From NCBI GenBank assembly GCA_017450705.1, contig JAFSTC010000073.1, positions 1-64,000 of the forward strand: 64,000 nt of DNA, given 5' to 3'. The translations under genes were made by a program, and so were the position numbers. The stretch comes from Lentisphaeria bacterium. GTDB taxonomy: Bacteria > Verrucomicrobiota > Lentisphaeria > Victivallales > Victivallaceae. Below the pieces are notes generated by a model. It was not told the origin of the DNA, made no database searches, and worked only from the letters and a program-made list of their open reading frames with translations. This document shows, in pieces, positions 1,548-64,000 of this stretch (the first letter of the stretch is position 1; every line of letters begins with the position of its first letter).

Positions 1548-2840
1548 ATGAAGATCGCTTGGTTCAAAAAAATCATCTCCCCCGAGATCGGAGCCTACAT
1601 CGCCGGTTACAGCCTCAAGGACAAATCCGTCGCCAAACTGGACGACCTTTACATGACCGGTCTCTGCGCCGACGACGGAAAAAACAAAGTTCTGATCGTG
1701 AGTTTCGACCTCATCGGACTGGACGAGTTCTTCACCCGCGACATCCGCCGCGCCTGCGCGGAGATCCTCGGCATCGAGGAGTGCGCGGTGATGTTTTCCT
1801 GCACCCACACCCACACCGGGCCCGAGTGCCGGGCCCTGGCGAAAGCCCCTCAGCAGCTGAACAAGCCCTATCTCGAACAATTGAAGACGTGGATCCTCGA
1901 CGAAGTCCGCAATCTCAAGGATTTCCGCGAGTGCTCCGTCTTTTTCTACTCCTCGAAGTGCGACGAAAACCGCAGCCGCCGCTACGTCACGGCATGCAAT
2001 CACGCAAGCTTCACTCCCCACCGCCGGGAGGTCGTCCCCACCGTGTCGGAATACGCCGACAAGGAGCTGGGGCAGCTTTGCTTCATCGACAAGGAAACGG
2101 GGCTCCCCCTCTATCTTGTCGGCAACTACGCGGCCCATCCGCTGGCCGGACACGCCCCCGGTCTGGGCGGCCGCCGGATCTCCGCCGACTTCCCCGGCGC
2201 CTTCCGGCGCTACGTCACCTCCGAGACGGGCGCGGAAAGCATGTTCATCTCCGGCGCCGCCGGAGATCTCGTCCCCAAAGAGGATGAACTGGGAGCCGAC
2301 GCCATCGACAGAATGGGGAAAAATCTGGCCAAAGCCGCCATCGGCGGTCTGGTCGACTGCACCCGGAACCCCGCCCGCTTCCGCATGGACGACGCCAAAG
2401 TCGGCGCCGTCAGCAAGTTCGTCACCGTCCCCCTGCGCAAGCACAAGATCGGCACCATCCCGGCCTTCTACGACGGAAAAACCGCCATCGATCTCGAGAT
2501 CCAGGCCGTCTCCATCGGCGACGTGTGCTTCGTCGGCGTCCCCGGAGAACTCTGCTGCGAACTGGGACAGGAGATCAAGTGGCACAGCCCCTTCCGCCGC
2601 ACCTGGATCGCCTACGTTTCGACCGCCTACCTGAGCTACCTCGTCCCCGCCAATCTCATGGTGGCCGGAGGCTACGAGGGAGGCGCCCAGCGCTTCACCG
2701 CCCGCTGCGGTCTGATGCTGCTCAACACCGCCGCCGACGCCATGTTCGAACTCCGGGAAAAAATCTTTCCTCAGGAGGGCGGTGAAATCTACCCCGACTG
2801 CCTCCAGCCCCCCCTCGTGAACATCCCCGCCAACCGCTGA
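1548..2840 (+). CDS. Neutral/alkaline ceramidase-like hydrolase, N-terminal-domain-only form
   Basis: A 430-residue protein resembling the N-terminal catalytic domain of neutral/alkaline non-lysosomal ceramidases. The clearest mark is SCTHTHTGPE near residue 85, matching the metal-binding THTH(S/T)GP motif of that family, followed later by NYAAHPLAG. Family members that act on ceramide are usually about 650-750 residues with a C-terminal Ig-like domain, which is absent here. There is no signal peptide, so a cytoplasmic role is likely. The ATG at 1548 is chosen because AAGGAAG at 1533-1539 lies 8 bases upstream; a GTG at 1539 overlaps that site. The true substrate is unknown; amidase or esterase activity on a sugar derivative is as plausible as ceramide. 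Confidence 0.7.
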   Translation: MKIAWFKKIISPEIGAYIAGYSLKDKSVAKLDDLYMTGLCADDGKNKVLIVSFDLIGLDEFFTRDIRRACAEILGIEECAVMFSCTHTHTGPECRALAKAPQQLNKPYLEQLKTWILDEVRNLKDFRECSVFFYSSKCDENRSRRYVTACNHASFTPHRREVVPTVSEYADKELGQLCFIDKETGLPLYLVGNYAAHPLAGHAPGLGGRRISADFPGAFRRYVTSETGAESMFISGAAGDLVPKEDELGADAIDRMGKNLAKAAIGGLVDCTRNPARFRMDDAKVGAVSKFVTVPLRKHKIGTIPAFYDGKTAIDLEIQAVSIGDVCFVGVPGELCCELGQEIKWHSPFRRTWIAYVSTAYLSYLVPANLMVAGGYEGGAQRFTARCGLMLLNTAADAMFELREKIFPQEGGEIYPDCLQPPLVNIPANR

Positions 2841-2860
2841 CGCGGTTTCGGAGCGGTCGT

Positions 2861-2965
2861 CCGGGGGAAGGAAAAAACTTTTTTTCACGTGAAAAAAAGT
2901 TTTTCCCTTCCCCCGGGCCCCCATCCTTTTTCAAAAAAAGCGAGATATTTTGGGAGACGGACGAA
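2861..2965. repeat. Intergenic hairpin repeat element, copy 1
   Basis: Bases 2861-2916 form a 56-base inverted repeat centred on CACGTG (2886-2891); the 28-base arms differ at one position. A short TTTTTC/AAAAAAG stem follows, then the block GCGAGATATTTTGGGAGACGG. The same order of parts in the same orientation recurs at 4150-4260. The hairpin is followed by C-rich rather than T-rich sequence, so it is not a standard terminator, although it may stabilise the upstream 3' end. Two direct CGAAGCCGCC units (2962 and 2982) follow it. Confidence 0.8.
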
Positions 2966-3011
2966 GCCGCCCGCAGCTGTCCGAAGCCGCCTGTCCCGGA
3001 AATGGCCGTTC

Positions 3012-3039
3012 TTGACAAGAAGGGCGGATGTGGTATATT
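3012..3039 (+). promoter_or_regulatory. Sigma-70-type promoter for the zinc dehydrogenase
   Basis: TTGACA at 3012-3017, a 16-base spacer and TATATT at 3034-3039. The start codon lies about 50 bases past the expected transcription start. This placement argues against an upstream in-frame ATG at 3028, which lies inside the promoter. Confidence 0.7.
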
Positions 3040-3096
3040 ATCGGCGAGCCCCCGGCAGTCGGGCCGGGGAGGAAACGGTACAGGCGGAGGCGGCCC

Positions 3097-4128
3097 ATGA
3101 AAACGAAATCCCTTTTCGGCAAGAAATATCTCGACATCGAAACCCGTGAACTGGAGCTTTCCCCCGGACCCTGCGACGTGATCGTCAAGGTCCTCGCCTG
3201 CGGCGTGTGCGGCACCGATCTCAACTTTCTGCGCGACTACGACGAGGACTGTATGCCCCTCGGCCACGAGATCGCGGGCGAAGTGGTCCTGTGCGGCAGC
3301 GAAGTGAAGAACATTTCCCCCGGCATGACCGTCACCGTGGAGGACTGCTCCATGTGCGGCAACTGTCTCGACTGCAAGAGCGGCCGCCCCGAGTTCTGCC
3401 GGAACATGCACACCCTCAACGGCTTCCCTGGCATGGGCCAGTATGTCATGGTCGACGCCGGCAACCTCAATGTCTACACGGGACTCGACCCCGTCCACGC
3501 CTGTCTCACCGAACCCCTGGCCGTGGCCCTCGCGGCGGTCAGCAAAGCCGACATCCCTCTCGACGGCAGCGTCATGATCTTCGGCGCGGGTCCCATCGGA
3601 CTCCTCACCGCCGCCCTCGCCCGCAAACGCGGCGCGGGATTCGTCGGCATCTCCGCCCGCTCCGACGAAAGCCCCATGAATCAGGCCCGCCTCGCCCTCG
3701 CCGGGAAACTGGGCTGCGACCTCATCGTCGTCACGAAAAAACAGGACCTCGTCGGCGAAGTCCGGAAAAAATTTCCCAAAGGCGTGGACCGCGTCATCGT
3801 CACCAGTCCCCCCGCCAGCGCCGTGGACGCTTTCAAAATCATCCGCTTCGGCGGCGCGATCTCCCTGCTGGGCCTGAGCTTCAAAGACGACCACGTCATC
3901 CCTCTGGACGTCAATGCCGCCATCTTCAACAAGACCTCGATCAACACCGTCTTCGCCGAACCCGCCATCGGCTTCGCCGCCGCCACGAACCTCATCCGCA
4001 GCGGCGCCATCGACGCCTCGCTCTTCCAAACCCATACCTTCGGCTTTGACGACGCTCAAAAGATCCTCTCCGCCAACCTCTCCGGCTCCCTCCCCGTCAT
4101 CAAAAGCGTCTTCACCCCCTTTGCCTGA
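3097..4128 (+). CDS. Zinc-containing medium-chain alcohol/polyol dehydrogenase
   Basis: A 343-residue medium-chain dehydrogenase that should oxidise a sugar alcohol, sugar or amino-alcohol with NAD(P). Catalytic zinc ligands are likely in CGVCGTD (Cys35) and GHE (His57, Glu58). The structural zinc set is complete at Cys87, Cys90, Cys93 and Cys101. A dinucleotide-binding GAGPIG lies near residue 163. Length and motif order match threonine/sorbitol dehydrogenase-type enzymes; the substrate cannot be read from sequence. The ATG at 3097 has GGAGG 6 bases upstream. The gene has its own promoter and sits between two copies of the same hairpin repeat. No signal peptide, so cytoplasmic. Confidence 0.85.
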   Translation: MKTKSLFGKKYLDIETRELELSPGPCDVIVKVLACGVCGTDLNFLRDYDEDCMPLGHEIAGEVVLCGSEVKNISPGMTVTVEDCSMCGNCLDCKSGRPEFCRNMHTLNGFPGMGQYVMVDAGNLNVYTGLDPVHACLTEPLAVALAAVSKADIPLDGSVMIFGAGPIGLLTAALARKRGAGFVGISARSDESPMNQARLALAGKLGCDLIVVTKKQDLVGEVRKKFPKGVDRVIVTSPPASAVDAFKIIRFGGAISLLGLSFKDDHVIPLDVNAAIFNKTSINTVFAEPAIGFAAATNLIRSGAIDASLFQTHTFGFDDAQKILSANLSGSLPVIKSVFTPFA

Positions 4129-4149
4129 AAAGGGGCGGGTGTGAGGGAG

Positions 4150-4260
4150 TCGAGGGAGGGGGAAAACTTCTTTTCGCGTGAAAAGAAGTTTTCCCCCTCC
4201 CCCGAGCCCCCCTTCCCTTTTCAAGAAAAGCGAGGTGTTTTGGGGGGACAGGCGAGACCG
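4150..4260. repeat. Intergenic hairpin repeat element, copy 2
   Basis: Bases 4150-4205 are an inverted repeat with a GCGT centre and long arms carrying one internal mismatch. It is followed by the palindrome CTTTTCAAGAAAAG and by GCGAGGTGTTTTGGGGGGAC. This matches copy 1 at 2861 in architecture and orientation, while the arm bases have changed in step so that the stem is kept. Paired changes of this kind suggest selection for the hairpin. The stop codon of the minus-strand GH127 gene lies inside this element. Confidence 0.8.
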
Positions 4261-6167
4261 CCGGGGCCGTCCGTGATTGTCCGTGTTCGTCCGTGTTCAC
4301 ACCCTGCCGCTGACGGAGGCGGTTCCTTTTCGTAACGGACCCGGTTCCAGACGCACATGCTGGTCCGCCCCCGGTTCTGCCACAGGGCGTAGGGGATCGC
4401 GGTGAAACGCGTCTCCTCGTACCGGGGCGCGCCGACGGCGTAGAGGCCGCTCCCCGAAAAGATCTCCCGCAGGGCCGTTCCCCGGAGGGCGGGCGTCCCG
4501 GCGGGGAGCCCCGGCGCGGCTCCGACCGTCACGGGACGGTCCGCGCAAAGGACGAGTTCCCGCACGGGGCAGGTCTGATCTATTTCTTCCAGCGCGTACA
4601 CCACGGGGCCCCGGCGCAGGGCGGCGCGCCCCAGATTGCCGGTCACCCGCGGATCGCTGTGGAGGAAGTCCGCAGGCATGTCCAGATCCAGCTCCACGGC
4701 TTCCCCCGCCTGCCAGTTTTTCGTTATGACGGGCTCCGTGTACGCTTTTCCCCCGGCGGCGAGACGCCACGCGCGGCACCAGCCGGGAATGCGCAGACGC
4801 AAGGTGAAAGCGCCGGCAGTTTCCACGACGATCCGCACCTTGCCCGAATAGGGGTAATCGCCCTCGATTTTGAGTTTGACGGTCCTGTCGGCAAGTTTCA
4901 GTTCCGCCGTGTTGGCCGCGGGGATGTTGACGGCGATCTCGCCGTCGCCGAGGGAGTAGATGAAGCGGCCCATCTGAGGCAGAAAACGGCAGAAGCTGGT
5001 GGGACAGCAGGAACAGCTGAACCACTTCTGACGCACGGGGGAACCGCTGTTGTAGCAGACGAGATTTTCGTCCACTTCGAGGTAGTTGGTGTAGAAGAAA
5101 TCGTCCCCGGCCAGACTGATGCCCGAGAGCACGCCGTTGTAGAGCGCGGTCTCCAGCACGTCCATGTACAGGGTCTTCCCGGTCATGTCGAAGAGCCGCG
5201 AGGCCAGCTGGCAGAGGCCCATGGCGGCGCAGCTTTCGGCGTACATGAGACTGCCGTTGGCCAGATCGTAGCCGCGGGTGAAACGCTCGCCCTGGAAACT
5301 GGATCCGATGCCTCCCGTGACGTACATTTTCCGGGAACAGATGCTGTCGAAGAGTTTTTCGCAGACGTTCAAAAGGCCGGCGTCGTCCGTCTCGCGGGCG
5401 AGATCGGCCATGCCTGTGTAAAGATAGACCGCCCGCACGGCGTGGCCGCAGGCTTCGGTCATTTCCCGGACGGGCCTGTCGGCCTGCACATTGACGAGGA
5501 AGGGCTCGGTAATGCCCTCCTCCGCTTCGAAGACGTTGGGAAGACTCCCCCGGTCGTCGATGAAATAAGCCGCCTGATCGAGATAGCGGCGGTTTCCCGT
5601 GGCCCGGTAAAGTTTGACGAGGGCCAGTTCGATCTCCTCGTGTCCGGGCCAGCCCCGACGCTGATTTTTTCCCCGTCCGAAGGTGTCGCAGATGAGGTCG
5701 GCGTACCGGCATACGGCGTCGAAAAACGCCTTGCCGCCGGGGAGATCCCGCCCCGCGACGGCGGCCTCCATCAGGTGCCCCGCGCAGTAAAGTTCGTGCT
5801 GGGTGCTGAGGGTCTTCCACCGTTCTCCCGGCTTGACGGCGGTGAAATAGCTGTTGAGATAACCGTCGGGGCATTGACAGGAGACGATCTTCTTCGTCCA
5901 TGCCTCGAAGAGCGCGGCGAGTTTTTCGTCGGGCCGGAGCCGGAGGGCATAGGCGATCCCCTCCAGAATCTTCGCCACATCGGAATCCCAGTAGATGTGC
6001 CGCTCCCCGTGGTAATGATCGAGATCGAAGGCGGCGATCCTCCCGGTCTCCACGGCCCGGGCCGCGGAAGAGGGGATGGTTTTTTCGATACAGCTTGCGA
6101 TGCGTCCGGCGAGGACGGGATCGGCCGGTCTCACATCGGAAAAGGCCGGACTCTCATACATGTTCAT
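4221..6167 (-). CDS. GH127-family enzyme (beta-L-arabinofuranosidase-like, DUF1680)
   Basis: A 648-residue protein with the landmarks of GH127: QCPDGYLNSYF near residue 97, an AESCAAMG block near 310 carrying a conserved Glu, and CSCCP near 381, matching the cysteine cluster that holds zinc and the catalytic Cys in this family. It should release terminal beta-L-arabinofuranose or a related sugar; the substrate is inferred. No signal peptide is seen, so it probably acts on imported oligosaccharides. The canonical family ending (ALWQNRG..CVWNRV) is followed by about 35 extra residues encoded by the 10-base tandem units and the hairpin repeat, where the stop lies. The start is the first ATG, with GGGAG 8 bases upstream. 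It is divergent from an AraC regulator, its likely controller. Confidence 0.88.
   Translation of the reverse strand: MNMYESPAFSDVRPADPVLAGRIASCIEKTIPSSAARAVETGRIAAFDLDHYHGERHIYWDSDVAKILEGIAYALRLRPDEKLAALFEAWTKKIVSCQCPDGYLNSYFTAVKPGERWKTLSTQHELYCAGHLMEAAVAGRDLPGGKAFFDAVCRYADLICDTFGRGKNQRRGWPGHEEIELALVKLYRATGNRRYLDQAAYFIDDRGSLPNVFEAEEGITEPFLVNVQADRPVREMTEACGHAVRAVYLYTGMADLARETDDAGLLNVCEKLFDSICSRKMYVTGGIGSSFQGERFTRGYDLANGSLMYAESCAAMGLCQLASRLFDMTGKTLYMDVLETALYNGVLSGISLAGDDFFYTNYLEVDENLVCYNSGSPVRQKWFSCSCCPTSFCRFLPQMGRFIYSLGDGEIAVNIPAANTAELKLADRTVKLKIEGDYPYSGKVRIVVETAGAFTLRLRIPGWCRAWRLAAGGKAYTEPVITKNWQAGEAVELDLDMPADFLHSDPRVTGNLGRAALRRGPVVYALEEIDQTCPVRELVLCADRPVTVGAAPGLPAGTPALRGTALREIFSGSGLYAVGAPRYEETRFTAIPYALWQNRGRTSMCVWNRVRYEKEPPPSAAGCEHGRTRTITDGPGGLACPPKTPRFS
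4270..4299. repeat. Three tandem 10-base units
   Basis: TCCGTGATTG (4270), TCCGTGTTCG (4280) and TCCGTGTTCA (4290) are head-to-tail copies of one 10-base unit. They overlap the 3' end of the minus-strand GH127 gene and encode part of its unusual tail. Three units without unique spacers are not a CRISPR array. Confidence 0.85.
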
Positions 6168-58794: not shown

Positions 58795-61695
58795 ATGACG
58801 ATGAAACACTTTCTGCTGGCCGCCGCCCTGTTCGCGGCAGTGACGGCGCCCGCGCTGGAGATCGCCCGGCGTCCCGGCAAGGCGACGAAGGACATTCTGG
58901 TCTTCTCCCAGTGGCAGATGCAGTACGGGACGTTCCAGAATTTCCTCCATTACTGGAAGGACCGGCCCCTGTACGTCAACCCGGCCCACCGCTACGAGGG
59001 CAACGATTTCGACTACGTCACCGATCCCAGCATGCAGAAAAACATCGAGCTGGCCAAGTCCTACAACATCGCCGGGCTCTCCCCGCTGGGGGGCATCCGG
59101 AACATGGGCCGCCTGATGGATCTGGCCGAGAAGACCGACGTGCAGGGATTCAAGGTCATGCCCGGGGTCTATCTGCCCGGGATCGCCTACTCCAGCGCGG
59201 CCACTTTCAAGACGTTCCACGCCATCCTCGAGCGTGCGATGAAGTCGAACAAGGTCTTCCGGATCAACGGCAAAGTCGTGATCAACTCCTACGAATCCGC
59301 CAGCCGGGTCCTCACACCGGAGCGGCTGAAGACCATCCTCGACGGGGCCCGCAAGGCCAAGGGCGACGGCTTCCTCTTCATCGCCGACATGAAGATCCCC
59401 GGTCAGTACTATTATCGTCACTACGACGGTTCCAAGGGCAACCCCGATCCGGCGGAAACGAAAAAATTCGTCGACGAGATGCAGGCCTATCTCGACGTCA
59501 GCGACGGGCTCTATCTCTACACCATCGGCAAGAAAACCGTCGGCGCCGAGGGCGGGGAGTACGGGACTTGCTGGGATCAGGCGTTCTTCGATCACGTCAA
59601 ACCCCTGATCCTCGAACTCTTTGCCCGGCCCCGGAACAAGGGCAAGATCATGGGAGCGGTCTGCCAGCTGGGGTATGTCAACCACTTCAGCGGCATGATC
59701 AACTGTCAGGAGTACGGCAGCGAGACGTTCCGCAAGAACTTCGAGTCGGTCCTCTCGCTCAACCCCGATTTCATCGTGACCTTCGAGTGGAACGAGTGGA
59801 ACGAAAACACGTGTTTCTGCCCCTCCGTCTACAAGGGCTCCGGCTACCGCAGGATGCTCCGCTATTACCAGAGCCTCATCGACGGCAAAAAACTCGTTCC
59901 CCTGCCCGGGGACGATCTTAGCGTACCCAATCTGCTGCTGAGTTACCGGTATGCCTGCAAACTGGGCGATGTGATGCGCTTCGAACTCCTGAACATCCCC
60001 GACGGCGGACCCACCGGCGCGTACAAGGCGCAGATCACGCTCAAGGACGTGAAGGGCAAAGTCGTCCACACCTTCGACGAAGTCGCCCTCGACGGCAAGG
60101 TGATGCAGGCGGTGACGCAAACGCTGCCCAGCGAGAAATTCACGACACAGCAGGTGCTTCTCCCCGAATTGACCGTGACGGACGAAAAGGGACGCAAAAC
60201 GGTCTATGCCGACAACCTGTACATCCGCCTGACGGCGACGGAAAACCGGATCTTCCAGTACGTCCGGACGGCGTTGCGGGAGGCGGCGAAGGTGAAGGTC
60301 GAAAAGTTCACCGTTTCTCCCGAAGCCGACGGCTCCTGGCGGGTCCGGGGCCGGGTGAGCGCCGACGCGCCGATGGCCTCCGTGGAACTGCTGGACAACC
60401 GGGACGAGATGCGGGCGCTGGGCGAGGACAAACCCGAATTCGATCAGAACGAAACGGTCATCATCCAGATGACCACCCACGCCGCCCTCAACTCCAAGAC
60501 CGCCCCGAAACTGGTCGGGCCCGTGGAGATGCGGAACGTCTCCCGCTGTCAGGCCCGCAGCGTCAAGCAGGACGGGAACAACGAGAACTTCAGGTTCGAC
60601 GTCACGAAATTCGGGATCAAGTACCGGGGGCAGGTCATCGGCAAAGGGACCCGCAAGGTGTTCTTCGCCATCCCCCGCAAGGAGGCGGATAAGGCGGTGC
60701 TGGAGGGTGCTCTCAACGTCGGCAAATTTGCCGTCCCCGTGGCGGACATCATGAAGTACGGCTCCGTCGCGCGGGAGTTCGAGCCCTGCGTCTTCTTCCG
60801 CTTCGACCGTTTCGAGGTCCAGCCGGACATCCCCGTGCGCCTGAACAAGAAGACCGCAACTTTCGACGTCCGGGTGTTCTCGGAGTTCGAGTTCCCCGTC
60901 TTCCACCTGCGGGTCATCATGGATGACGGAAAACTCTTCCGCTCCAAGCCGATCCAGACGAAATCCGCCAAGGGGAAGATGGTTTCCCTCCCGCTGTGGT
61001 CCGAGACCGAGCGAAAACTCGTGAAAGTGCAAGTCGCCGCGGACCGGATCCCCGACGCCCGCTACATCTTCGACCCGAAGCCCGTCGGGATCCTGCGGAA
61101 CACCCGGGCCCCCCGTTTCGACGGGGAGATCGGCGGCGGCTACCGCTACGCCCAGCCCTTCTCCGGGCACAAGCTCGTCGTCAAAGGTGCGAAGACCGCC
61201 GCCGCCCAGTGGCGCAAGGACGAGACCGGCCGGGACATCCTGCACTTCGACGGCGTCATGAGCAACATCTCCTTCGAACCCGAGGTCTTCCCCCGGGGCG
61301 CCTTCACCTTCGAGTGCGAGTTCCGTCCGGAGACGGCGGATGATATGGCCATCTTCCGCCACAGCAGTTCCAACCCCGGGTCGCTGGGGGTCTTCATCCG
61401 CGGCGGAAAACTCTTCCTCAACTTCATGAAGCCCTCCACCGCGTTCCGCTATCTGCCCACTAAACTTGCCGTCAAAACGGGTGAGTGGAACACGCTCAAG
61501 ATCGTCTCCGACATCAAGCAATTGACGGTCACGCTCAACGGCAAAACGCAGACCTTCGACAACATCGGCCTGGGCGGCATGTTCCGGGCCTCGTGCTTCG
61601 GCGGCCCCGTCGGGAACTACGGCACGCCCGCCGGTGCGAAAATGTTCCGGGGCGATCTGCGGAGCCTTCGGATCTTCCACAACGCCGAAAAATAG
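58795..61695 (+). CDS. Secreted GH99-like protein with C-terminal LamG domain
   Basis: A 966-residue exported protein (signal peptide to about residue 22). The barrel domain opens with QMQYGTFQNFLHYWKDRPLY, then LGYVNHFSGMINCQEYG and FEWNEWNENTCFCPSVYKG near residue 330, the closest of the set to the WNEW-E motif of GH99/WbsX-like enzymes. LPGDDLSVPNLLLS follows. Beta-sandwich domains and a C-terminal LamG domain (FPRGAFTFECEFRPETADD) complete it. AAGGAGGA lies 5 bases before the ATG. The closest relative in the window is the partial gene at 62614; an amidohydrolase lies between them. Probably an extracellular or periplasmic endo-glycosidase; substrate unknown. Confidence 0.8.
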   Translation: MTMKHFLLAAALFAAVTAPALEIARRPGKATKDILVFSQWQMQYGTFQNFLHYWKDRPLYVNPAHRYEGNDFDYVTDPSMQKNIELAKSYNIAGLSPLGGIRNMGRLMDLAEKTDVQGFKVMPGVYLPGIAYSSAATFKTFHAILERAMKSNKVFRINGKVVINSYESASRVLTPERLKTILDGARKAKGDGFLFIADMKIPGQYYYRHYDGSKGNPDPAETKKFVDEMQAYLDVSDGLYLYTIGKKTVGAEGGEYGTCWDQAFFDHVKPLILELFARPRNKGKIMGAVCQLGYVNHFSGMINCQEYGSETFRKNFESVLSLNPDFIVTFEWNEWNENTCFCPSVYKGSGYRRMLRYYQSLIDGKKLVPLPGDDLSVPNLLLSYRYACKLGDVMRFELLNIPDGGPTGAYKAQITLKDVKGKVVHTFDEVALDGKVMQAVTQTLPSEKFTTQQVLLPELTVTDEKGRKTVYADNLYIRLTATENRIFQYVRTALREAAKVKVEKFTVSPEADGSWRVRGRVSADAPMASVELLDNRDEMRALGEDKPEFDQNETVIIQMTTHAALNSKTAPKLVGPVEMRNVSRCQARSVKQDGNNENFRFDVTKFGIKYRGQVIGKGTRKVFFAIPRKEADKAVLEGALNVGKFAVPVADIMKYGSVAREFEPCVFFRFDRFEVQPDIPVRLNKKTATFDVRVFSEFEFPVFHLRVIMDDGKLFRSKPIQTKSAKGKMVSLPLWSETERKLVKVQVAADRIPDARYIFDPKPVGILRNTRAPRFDGEIGGGYRYAQPFSGHKLVVKGAKTAAAQWRKDETGRDILHFDGVMSNISFEPEVFPRGAFTFECEFRPETADDMAIFRHSSSNPGSLGVFIRGGKLFLNFMKPSTAFRYLPTKLAVKTGEWNTLKIVSDIKQLTVTLNGKTQTFDNIGLGGMFRASCFGGPVGNYGTPAGAKMFRGDLRSLRIFHNAEK

Positions 61696-62613: not shown

Positions 62614-64000
62614 ATGTGCATCGATTTTTGCGCCCCGAAAACGAAAAAAACGCTTTTTCTTCTCTTCTTCTTCGCCTCGCTGTTCTCCGCCGGGGCGGCG
62701 GAGATCCCCCGGCGTCCCGGAAAAGTCACGAAGACCATCGCCATCTTTCCGGAGCTTGAGGTGCAGTACGGCACGTTCCAGAATTTCCTCCACTACTGGA
62801 ACGACCGCCCGCTCTACGTGGACCGCGCCCACAGGTATTTTGGCAACAAGTTCGTCTACAACAACGACGCAAGTCTCTTCACCGATATCAGGATCGCCCG
62901 GCGCTACGGCATTTCCGGGCTCTGCCCGCTGGCCCGGTACGCCGTCCTCAAACTGGTGCTGGACGCGGCGGACAACCATTACACGCCCGAGTTCCGCGTC
63001 CTGCCCGGGGTCTACCTCGTCAAGCGCGGCAACGTGGACAAGATGAACGCCTCCGAAAAGGAGAACTTTTTCAAGATCATCGAGGCGGCGGTCAAGTCCA
63101 AAAGCGCCTGGCGGGTCAACGGCAAAGCGGTCATCAACAGCTACGAGGCGACGTATCTCGCCCCCGCGGGGCTGAAGGAGGTCCTGGAGGAGGCACGCCA
63201 AAAATTCGGCGACACCTTCCTCTTCTCGGCCTGCATGAAGATCCCGGGCCAGCGGCTCTACGCCCGGTTCCTCCGCAACGGCCGCAAACTCAAGGAGGAG
63301 GACGTCAAGTGGTACACCGACACCGTGCAGTCCTATCTCGACGTCTGCGGCGGCGTGTACCTCTACGGGCTGGGACGGTGCTACGACTACGACGGCGAGT
63401 ACGGGAGTAAAATCGACGCCGAATTTTTCCATAAGCACTACCGCCCGCTGGCGTGGAAGATCATGACCGATCCCCGCAACAAGGGGAAGATCTTCGGCAT
63501 CCTCTGCGCCCTCGGCTACGTCAACAACTTTTCGGGAAGAGTCAATGCGGGGGAATACGGCACCGAAACGCTCCGGGAGAGTTTCGACGAGTGCCTCTCT
63601 CTCGATCCCGACTACATCGTCCCCTTCGAGTGGAACGAGTGGAACGAAAACACCTGTTTCATGCCGACGATCTACAAGGGCAGCTGCATCGAGCGCTTGA
63701 TGAGGTACTTCAACTCCCGGATCACGGGCAAGGCGCTGGAGCCCCGCGAGGGCGACGATCTTTCGCTGCCCAACGCCGTTCTGAGCTACCGTTACCAGCT
63801 CAAGCTGGGGGAGATCCTCCGCTTCGAACTGCTGACGATCCCGGACGGTTCACCCGCCTTCACGGGCAAAGCCGAACTCGTCCTCAAAGACGGCGCGACG
63901 GGGCAAGTCGTAAAGACGATCCCCTTCCGTTTCCGCAACGGAGAGTACAAGGCCCAGACCGTGGAACTTGCGACCGAGAAGCTCGCCCCCTATCAGGTCC
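62614..64000 (+). CDS. Secreted GH99-like protein, 3' end outside window
   Basis: The first 462 residues of an exported protein that runs off the right edge. After a signal peptide of about 28 residues (hydrophobic FLLFFFASLFSA) comes the same barrel as at 58795: EVQYGTFQNFLHYWNDRPLY, LGYVNNFSGRVNAGEYG, FEWNEWNENTCFMPTIYKG near residue 340 and REGDDLSLPNAVLS. The beginning of the beta-sandwich region is visible (ELLTIPDGSPAFTGK). A C-terminal LamG domain is expected from the paralogs but not seen. AGGAGAGGAAAGA precedes the ATG. It is close to the protein at 58795 over the whole visible length, so the pair arose by duplication around the amidohydrolase gene. Confidence 0.8.
   Translation, partial: MCIDFCAPKTKKTLFLLFFFASLFSAGAAEIPRRPGKVTKTIAIFPELEVQYGTFQNFLHYWNDRPLYVDRAHRYFGNKFVYNNDASLFTDIRIARRYGISGLCPLARYAVLKLVLDAADNHYTPEFRVLPGVYLVKRGNVDKMNASEKENFFKIIEAAVKSKSAWRVNGKAVINSYEATYLAPAGLKEVLEEARQKFGDTFLFSACMKIPGQRLYARFLRNGRKLKEEDVKWYTDTVQSYLDVCGGVYLYGLGRCYDYDGEYGSKIDAEFFHKHYRPLAWKIMTDPRNKGKIFGILCALGYVNNFSGRVNAGEYGTETLRESFDECLSLDPDYIVPFEWNEWNENTCFMPTIYKGSCIERLMRYFNSRITGKALEPREGDDLSLPNAVLSYRYQLKLGEILRFELLTIPDGSPAFTGKAELVLKDGATGQVVKTIPFRFRNGEYKAQTVELATEKLAPYQV

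Follow-up and report, generated by a model that had tools for sequence, protein, structure and literature searches.

The window, the whole stretch of DNA analyzed here, comprises 64,000 nucleotides (positions 1 to 64,000) of contig JAFSTC010000073.1 from a Lentisphaeria bacterium (GCA_017450705.1). The genome is a draft of 3.97 Mb in 117 contigs, listed as 97.4% complete, and its relatives are uncultured Lentisphaeria/Victivallales, many of them from ruminant guts. A GH127 gene and a dehydrogenase gene converge on one copy of a dispersed repeat element, and the following features were recognized:

2863 to 2971, plus strand: the window's other copy of the element, lying 22 nt past the stop of a gene at 1539-2840.
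3097 to 4128, plus strand: zinc-dependent dehydrogenase gene (PF08240 and PF00107), converging on the GH127 gene.
4126 to 4151, plus strand: left arm of the element, with the dehydrogenase TGA inside it; pairs with 4214-4222 in the predicted fold.
4152 to 4261, plus strand: whole match to the R1 repeat model (117.2 bits).
4152 to 4201, plus strand: principal hairpin of the element, formed by arms at about 4152-4175 and 4180-4201 around a GCGT loop.
4207 to 4230, plus strand: second module (putative third strand), a mirror image of the hairpin right arm; its complement holds the GH127 TGA.
4221 to 6167, minus strand: GH127 gene (beta-L-arabinofuranosidase-like/aceric acid hydrolase-like; ORF 6167 to 4221), 648 aa including the C-terminal tail.
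4221 to 4265, minus strand: distal part of the element, read as PGGLACPPKTPRFS plus TGA (residues 635-648 and stop).
4266 to 4298, minus strand: 10-base tandem units (GTCCGTGNNN on the plus strand), read as EHGRTRTITDG (residues 624-634).
4299 to 4337, minus strand: first 13 extra codons, RYEKEPPPSAAGC (residues 611-623); 39 nt without detectable repeat match.
4338 to 4352, minus strand: codons for VWNRV, the usual C-terminus of the family (residues 606-610).

Based on Pfam matches, the catalytic, middle and C-terminal GH127 domains are all present and over cut-off (PF07944, 290.4 bits; PF20736, 48.6 bits; PF20737, 67.1 bits), and the final domain stops at residue 608. Alignment with six distinct solved GH127 sequences reaches residues 608-611 of the window protein. 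The aceric acid hydrolase model NF049879 gave 314.7 bits against a cut-off of 950, and the activity is given only as putatively beta-L-arabinofuranosidase-like or aceric acid hydrolase-like. VWNRV occupies residues 606-610 of 648 and is followed by 38 further residues and the TGA at 4223-4221.

In 50 of 52 related loci the stop lies 4-12 residues after the conserved VW, compared with 41 in the window protein. Forty-eight of the ends were measured by script (46 with 4-12 residues after VW, two with 28), and the remaining four (L067, and L087, L115 and L116, which were read by eye) have 4 residues after VW or its equivalent; two of the 52, L102 and L116, are partial genes. The nearest relatives end in VWNRILRAAY (82% identity) and VWNRYQTAR (73%), with the stop 4-8 codons after VW. 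As the preliminary description had anticipated, in loci without the tail the coding sequence ends immediately behind VWNR or its counterpart, and the tail itself was found in none of the 52. Judging from ortholog lengths, the ancestral stop was probably located in the first few of the 13 extra codons. Two near-identical Verrucomicrobia relatives (L103 and L104) carry a 28-residue tail of their own, which is unrelated in sequence.

The tail comprises 13 residues without a repeat match, about 11 from the 10-base units (the tandem array is located at 4268-4298) and 14 from the element, which also supplies the TGA; this stop falls within the short palindrome CTTTTCAAGAAAAG. The course first described for the tail, through the 10-base units into the hairpin repeat and ending at a TGA in a short palindrome, was confirmed from the ORF and the coordinates. 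The number of repeat-encoded residues, given as about 35, had to be changed: 38 residues follow VWNRV and, as 13 of them are without a repeat match, about 25 are repeat-encoded. The DNA of residues 611-623 had no clear match in nine element copies or in the downstream DNA of genome G005; its best match (C64:82442) had a score which was reached in 7 of 300 shuffles.

The codon usage of the tail is non-coding-like. Its codon score was -11.8; native 38-codon windows of the same gene averaged 13.9 and never scored below 1.6. An AlphaFold2 model (38-sequence alignment) had a mean pLDDT of 91.8, its last strand lying at residues 608-611, and residues 615-648 fell below 50; the alignment held no homologs of the tail, so that low confidence there is expected either way. 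The tail is predicted to be disordered over 615-648 and, if translated, is probably tolerated rather than useful.

The dehydrogenase TGA (4126-4128) lies in the left arm, so that both converging genes end within one element. The fold z-score of 4126-4262 was -5.55, and the dehydrogenase gene is flanked by the two element copies of the window. No Rfam family matched in the window at gathering thresholds. A simple intrinsic terminator was considered and rejected, as a pattern scan of 2700-4500 (one consensus, G+C-rich stem followed directly by a U run) reported neither element hairpin. A good sigma-70-like promoter match (11/12) was observed at 3012-3039, between the first element copy, which it follows closely, and the dehydrogenase gene.

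A covariance model was built from 21 copies. With 150 of 3358 candidates scored, the matches collapse to 102 places, which is a lower bound, and the element is therefore present in at least 102 places of the genome. The second module was not recognizable in nine of these, leaving 93 anchored copies, and some other copies are without the main hairpin (e.g. C62:20656, C64:75658 and C15:23995). Two-sided changes that preserve the hairpin were found in 12 of 22 pairs, and 140 cells were counted against a shuffled mean of 43.6 (77 copies), in an alignment fitted to the model's own structure. The element was detected in 26 of 34 genomes of the genus, the window genome included (E 0.001 or better), and at 1e-6 or better in 33 of the 120 genomes sampled from the order, including 27 from the same family. 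Several draft contigs begin or end inside element copies (e.g. C7, C64, C68, C85 and C98), as expected if the repeat breaks assembly.

The 10-base unit GTCCGTGNNNGTCCGTG gave 11 matches at 8 places, six of which adjoin an element copy on the same side, with no element near the other two; a reversed control pattern had no match in the genome. Judged by this placement, the 10-base units belong with the element. Another tandem unit of the window, the 9-base CGAGTGGAA, occurs in 2.3 copies at 59784-59804 and at 63627-63647, about 3.8 kb apart.

Palindromic repeats near gene 3' ends are also known from the REP/BIME families with their RAYT transposases. The window element shares this location and the palindromic form; it differs in being larger and in having a mirror module, and no match to PF01797 (Y1_Tnp) was found in the genome (E 0.001), while 5 of 14 control genomes were matched.

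With respect to genes, most testable copies of the element share one position and orientation. Among 80 copies with enough left flank, 57 begin at a distance of 1-49 nt downstream of a credible stop whose gene is read towards the hairpin; when the test was moved by 300-900 nt to six other positions, this held for only 0-2 of 78-97. Genes were called with a codon-usage script of our own rather than by a standard gene finder. Of the 76 copies with a left gene called within 400 nt, 65 have the nearest such gene reading towards the hairpin, and between co-directional genes 20 copies have one orientation and 8 the opposite. Near the far end of the element, the stop of a converging gene was seen in 29/97. 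With up to 4 mismatches allowed, the left-arm motif TTCCCGATAAGGG was present in 38 of 83 copies, compared with 69 of 1182 control pieces. The left arm contains the stop of 12 genes, as the TAA of this motif in six and as a TGA of the same arm in six. A converging gene ending inside the core was seen in one of the 93 anchored copies, that of GH127. The repeat is an oriented 3'-end element, consisting of a hairpin and a mirror-image third module of the intrastrand-triplex kind, and it may be able to fold into a triplex.

A second gene of this genome has a comparable ending. A melibiase-like gene (contig C87; L154, around 1502-1538) continues for 19 residues past the codon at which its G005 and G031 orthologs stop and runs into the hairpin of its own element, a TAA ending the extension; in the G005 ortholog the element lies just after an intact stop. 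The comparison rests on G005 and G031, since 9 of 11 orthologs are unaligned this far, and on these sequences the C87 gene repeats the GH127 pattern. Nine upstream genes were compared by eye with G005. A same-orientation element was found in four (C90, C87, C67 and C37), while at C75, C42 and C78 the gap element has opposite orientations in the two genomes (G005 loci L203, L195 and L194); the comparison showed no element for C49 and, for C7, only a hairpin-like remnant directly downstream. Some element sites are therefore common to both genomes and others are not, an observation that bears on whether the element might be a MITE; the G005 set consists of 40 contigs chosen for holding elements plus locus L071, and no rate of presence or absence can be derived from it.

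An ancestral version of this very site was seen in no closely related genome; the nearest ortholog, L071, is only 82% identical and has an intact stop at 5843. Its downstream DNA is unaligned until a degenerate element remnant in the same orientation at 5933-6016, about 87 nt downstream of the stop. The model score of this remnant is weak (R1, 18.8 bits; E 0.0093 over 450,657 bases); against the element consensus it reached a local score of 45, whereas 2000 shuffles gave no more than 31 and the 19 other orthologs tested no more than 21. The element was therefore probably present before the two lineages split. The intact stop and the remnant in L071, together with the 39 nt of unmatched spacer in the window, fit a loss of the stop better than an insertion, and we consider it rather probable that the GH127 stop was lost beside a resident element, with read-through into it. 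By this account, a copy of the dispersed repeat would already have been present in the gap downstream of GH127, and the native stop would have been lost in the window lineage through a small local change. Translation would then cross 39 nt that used to be intergenic and continue through the 10-base units into the distal element, to be ended by an in-frame TGA on the complement of the second module. A very similar footprint would be expected if the element had been inserted along with a small deletion, or if element copies had recombined.

In the preliminary description, the element was thought to have inserted at or near the original stop and to have replaced it. Those parts of the interpretation concerning the relatives (stop after VWNR), the origin of most of the tail in the repeat and the stop in the palindrome were upheld; insertion with replacement of the stop is unsupported as it was stated. 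That the element removed the stop on insertion and supplied both tail and new stop is, on present evidence, unlikely. The overlap of the opposite, left end of the element with the stops of the 12 genes mentioned above makes insertion over a stop possible for this family, and HisA (L171, C25:8981) ends in a left arm with CARSR*, its G005 ortholog ending CAHAKG* with no element within 60 nt after the stop. However, L071 has its remnant well past an intact stop, 39 nt without a repeat match separate VWNRV from the first repeat codon, and GH127 meets the element at its far end, at which a gene ends inside the core in this one anchored copy alone.

Recombination between two element copies could have joined the 3' end of GH127 to the dehydrogenase gene, the junction removing the stop. 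The AraC gene, which neighbors GH127 opposite the dehydrogenase gene, is conserved among the nearest relatives (91% in L071), while the dehydrogenase gene went unmatched in the flanking DNA available for the 52 related loci (tblastn, 1e-5), and on this basis the neighborhood may have undergone rearrangement. Two copies flank the dehydrogenase gene in the window, and triplex motifs of E. coli mark rearranged sites (PMC4666352). The flanks of some of the 52 loci are short (contig ends), so that a missing neighbor there is no proof of absence, and a junction inside the element would leave a stop about 100 nt away untouched. We regard this origin of the extension as improbable.

An error of sequencing or assembly in this single draft genome is a still more doubtful explanation of the missing stop. 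One substitution in the first codons after VWNRV would suffice, the draft is divided into 117 contigs of which several end inside element copies, and one published putative gene fusion proved to be the product of replicated assembly errors (PMC4494051). A single-base indel after VWNRV, however, gives no short end, as the other two frames are open for at least 12 codons, and a second gene of the genome has the same pattern. An ancient, conserved origin of the tail within the protein can practically be dismissed: no supporting point was found, and the tail is absent from all 52 related loci, non-coding-like in codon use and disordered in the model.

Repeat-derived C-terminal tails, stop-loss extensions and intrastrand triplex repeats are already published. 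Among repeats of the RU-1/ERIC type, an RU-1 repeat lengthens an Erwinia amidase, apparently eliminating its stop (Delihas 2007, PMC2759123; review PMC2229807); this amidase, ECA3499, ends at 496 and its relatives at 461 (PMC2759123). As in that case, an enzyme gene carries at its 3' end a small, dispersed repeat which adds a tail past the conserved domain and provides the stop. In contrast to RU-1, the GH127 repeat is taken to be of another family, comes from another phylum, has a mirror-repeat module, and apparently was resident beside the stop that was lost. C-terminal extensions by stop loss have been described in yeast and fly (Andreatta et al. 2015, PMC4494051), where, as in GH127, non-coding 3' DNA turned coding once the stop was gone; in GH127 the recruited DNA differs in being mostly a dispersed repeat. 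The GH127 tail offers a clean example, on a small scale, of how non-coding repeat DNA would become protein after stop loss. By itself it is of modest interest, and the element family matters more.

The relation between the second module and the hairpin was examined copy by copy. For the 71 of 102 own copies that could be parsed (31 could not), the mirror relation had a mean score of 27.7, compared with 11.8-15.7 for the other relations and 8.7 for shuffled modules; when modules were swapped between copies, the mean was 21.9 and the maximum 23.0 in 200 rounds. In a set of 176 copies from 17 genomes, 130 were parsed and 46 were not (G005 contributed 34 copies, of which 20 were parsed). The lower stem scored 18.38 in this set against a swapped mean of 14.99; with 117 distinct pairs and swaps within a genome only, the values were 18.39 and 16.22, and for 33 distinct pairs from 15 other species 20.61 and 16.07. 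The upper stem gave 12.95 against 10.12 when swapped. In each of these latter mirror tests the observed value was reached by 0 of 500 swaps. A cruder count of features gave a less clear-cut picture: an arm with G-A-G was accompanied by a module with C-T-C in 25 of the 117 pairs, G-A-G occurred alone in 23 and C-T-C alone in 8, and 61 pairs had neither. Duplication as the origin of the second module was rejected, the direct and inverted relations scoring far below the mirror relation.

Linked subtypes were noticed by eye (A1, A3): where the variable base of the hairpin reads TTC/TTT, CTC, the module tends to have AAG/AAA, GAG. They persist even where the small palindrome's own pairing breaks, an observation for which the upper-stem swap test is relevant.

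Minus-strand purine-motif runs (at most one mismatch) of at least 8 were found in 118 of the 130 parsed copies, and of at least 10 in 94. The corresponding counts were 75 and 18 for shuffled thirds (one round), and on average 110.4 and 53.65 for swapped ones (20 rounds); the swapped control being near the observed count at 8, discrimination comes only from the longer runs. With a run of just 8, the copy beside GH127 is a weak example. A hairpin with a third block mirroring one arm is present, as is a triad-compatible third strand of at least 6-8 nt with no more than one mismatch. The ITxF rule of 1-6 nt loops between the three blocks was judged by eye: the loop is short only if the whole 24-bp stem is counted, and if the G/C-rich lower stem is taken alone, the upper stem becomes an overlong loop.

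Mirror matching of module to stem, copy by copy, is what an intrastrand triplex predicts, and the structure is regarded as a putative triplex. Shared ancestry of a few subfamilies, which the swap tests remove only partly, can explain part of the association; it explains less readily why the changes match rather than clash. It is conceivable, though we advance it tentatively, that a triple-helix element is kept at gene ends by the genus and family, its third strand matched copy by copy and species by species, and that the triplex forms and matters in cells, as a boundary of replication or transcription or as an mRNA end. Within this tentative proposal the element, because it hugs stop codons, would also be a reservoir of backup stops and new tails. 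With about 100 copies whose third strand changes in step with the stem and which are mostly oriented after stops, the family would offer evolutionary evidence and a test system for the role of triplexes in bacteria.

Intrastrand triplex repeats have been described from a wide range of bacteria (Holder et al. 2015, PMC4666352). For E. coli, that paper reports a motif with no strand bias and no fixed distance to genes, more often upstream of them, and with no promoter or terminator activity. "Victivallis" and "Lentisphaer" are absent from the main text of the paper, and among open-access papers none on point was found for a repeat of Lentisphaerae or Victivallis. Compared with BoxC/PIT, the window element is likewise a multi-copy intergenic repeat in which a hairpin is joined by a third block mirroring one arm, and purine-motif triads are possible on one strand. 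It differs in its stem, which is about 24 bp long and has an A/T-rich upper part at which a third strand would change motif, and in that most testable copies are located just after stop codons in a fixed orientation. Orientation after stops and a longer, two-part stem would thus set this putative triplex apart from the known repeats. By eye only, the E. coli third strand GGGTGAGGG resembles the complements of copies in the window genome.
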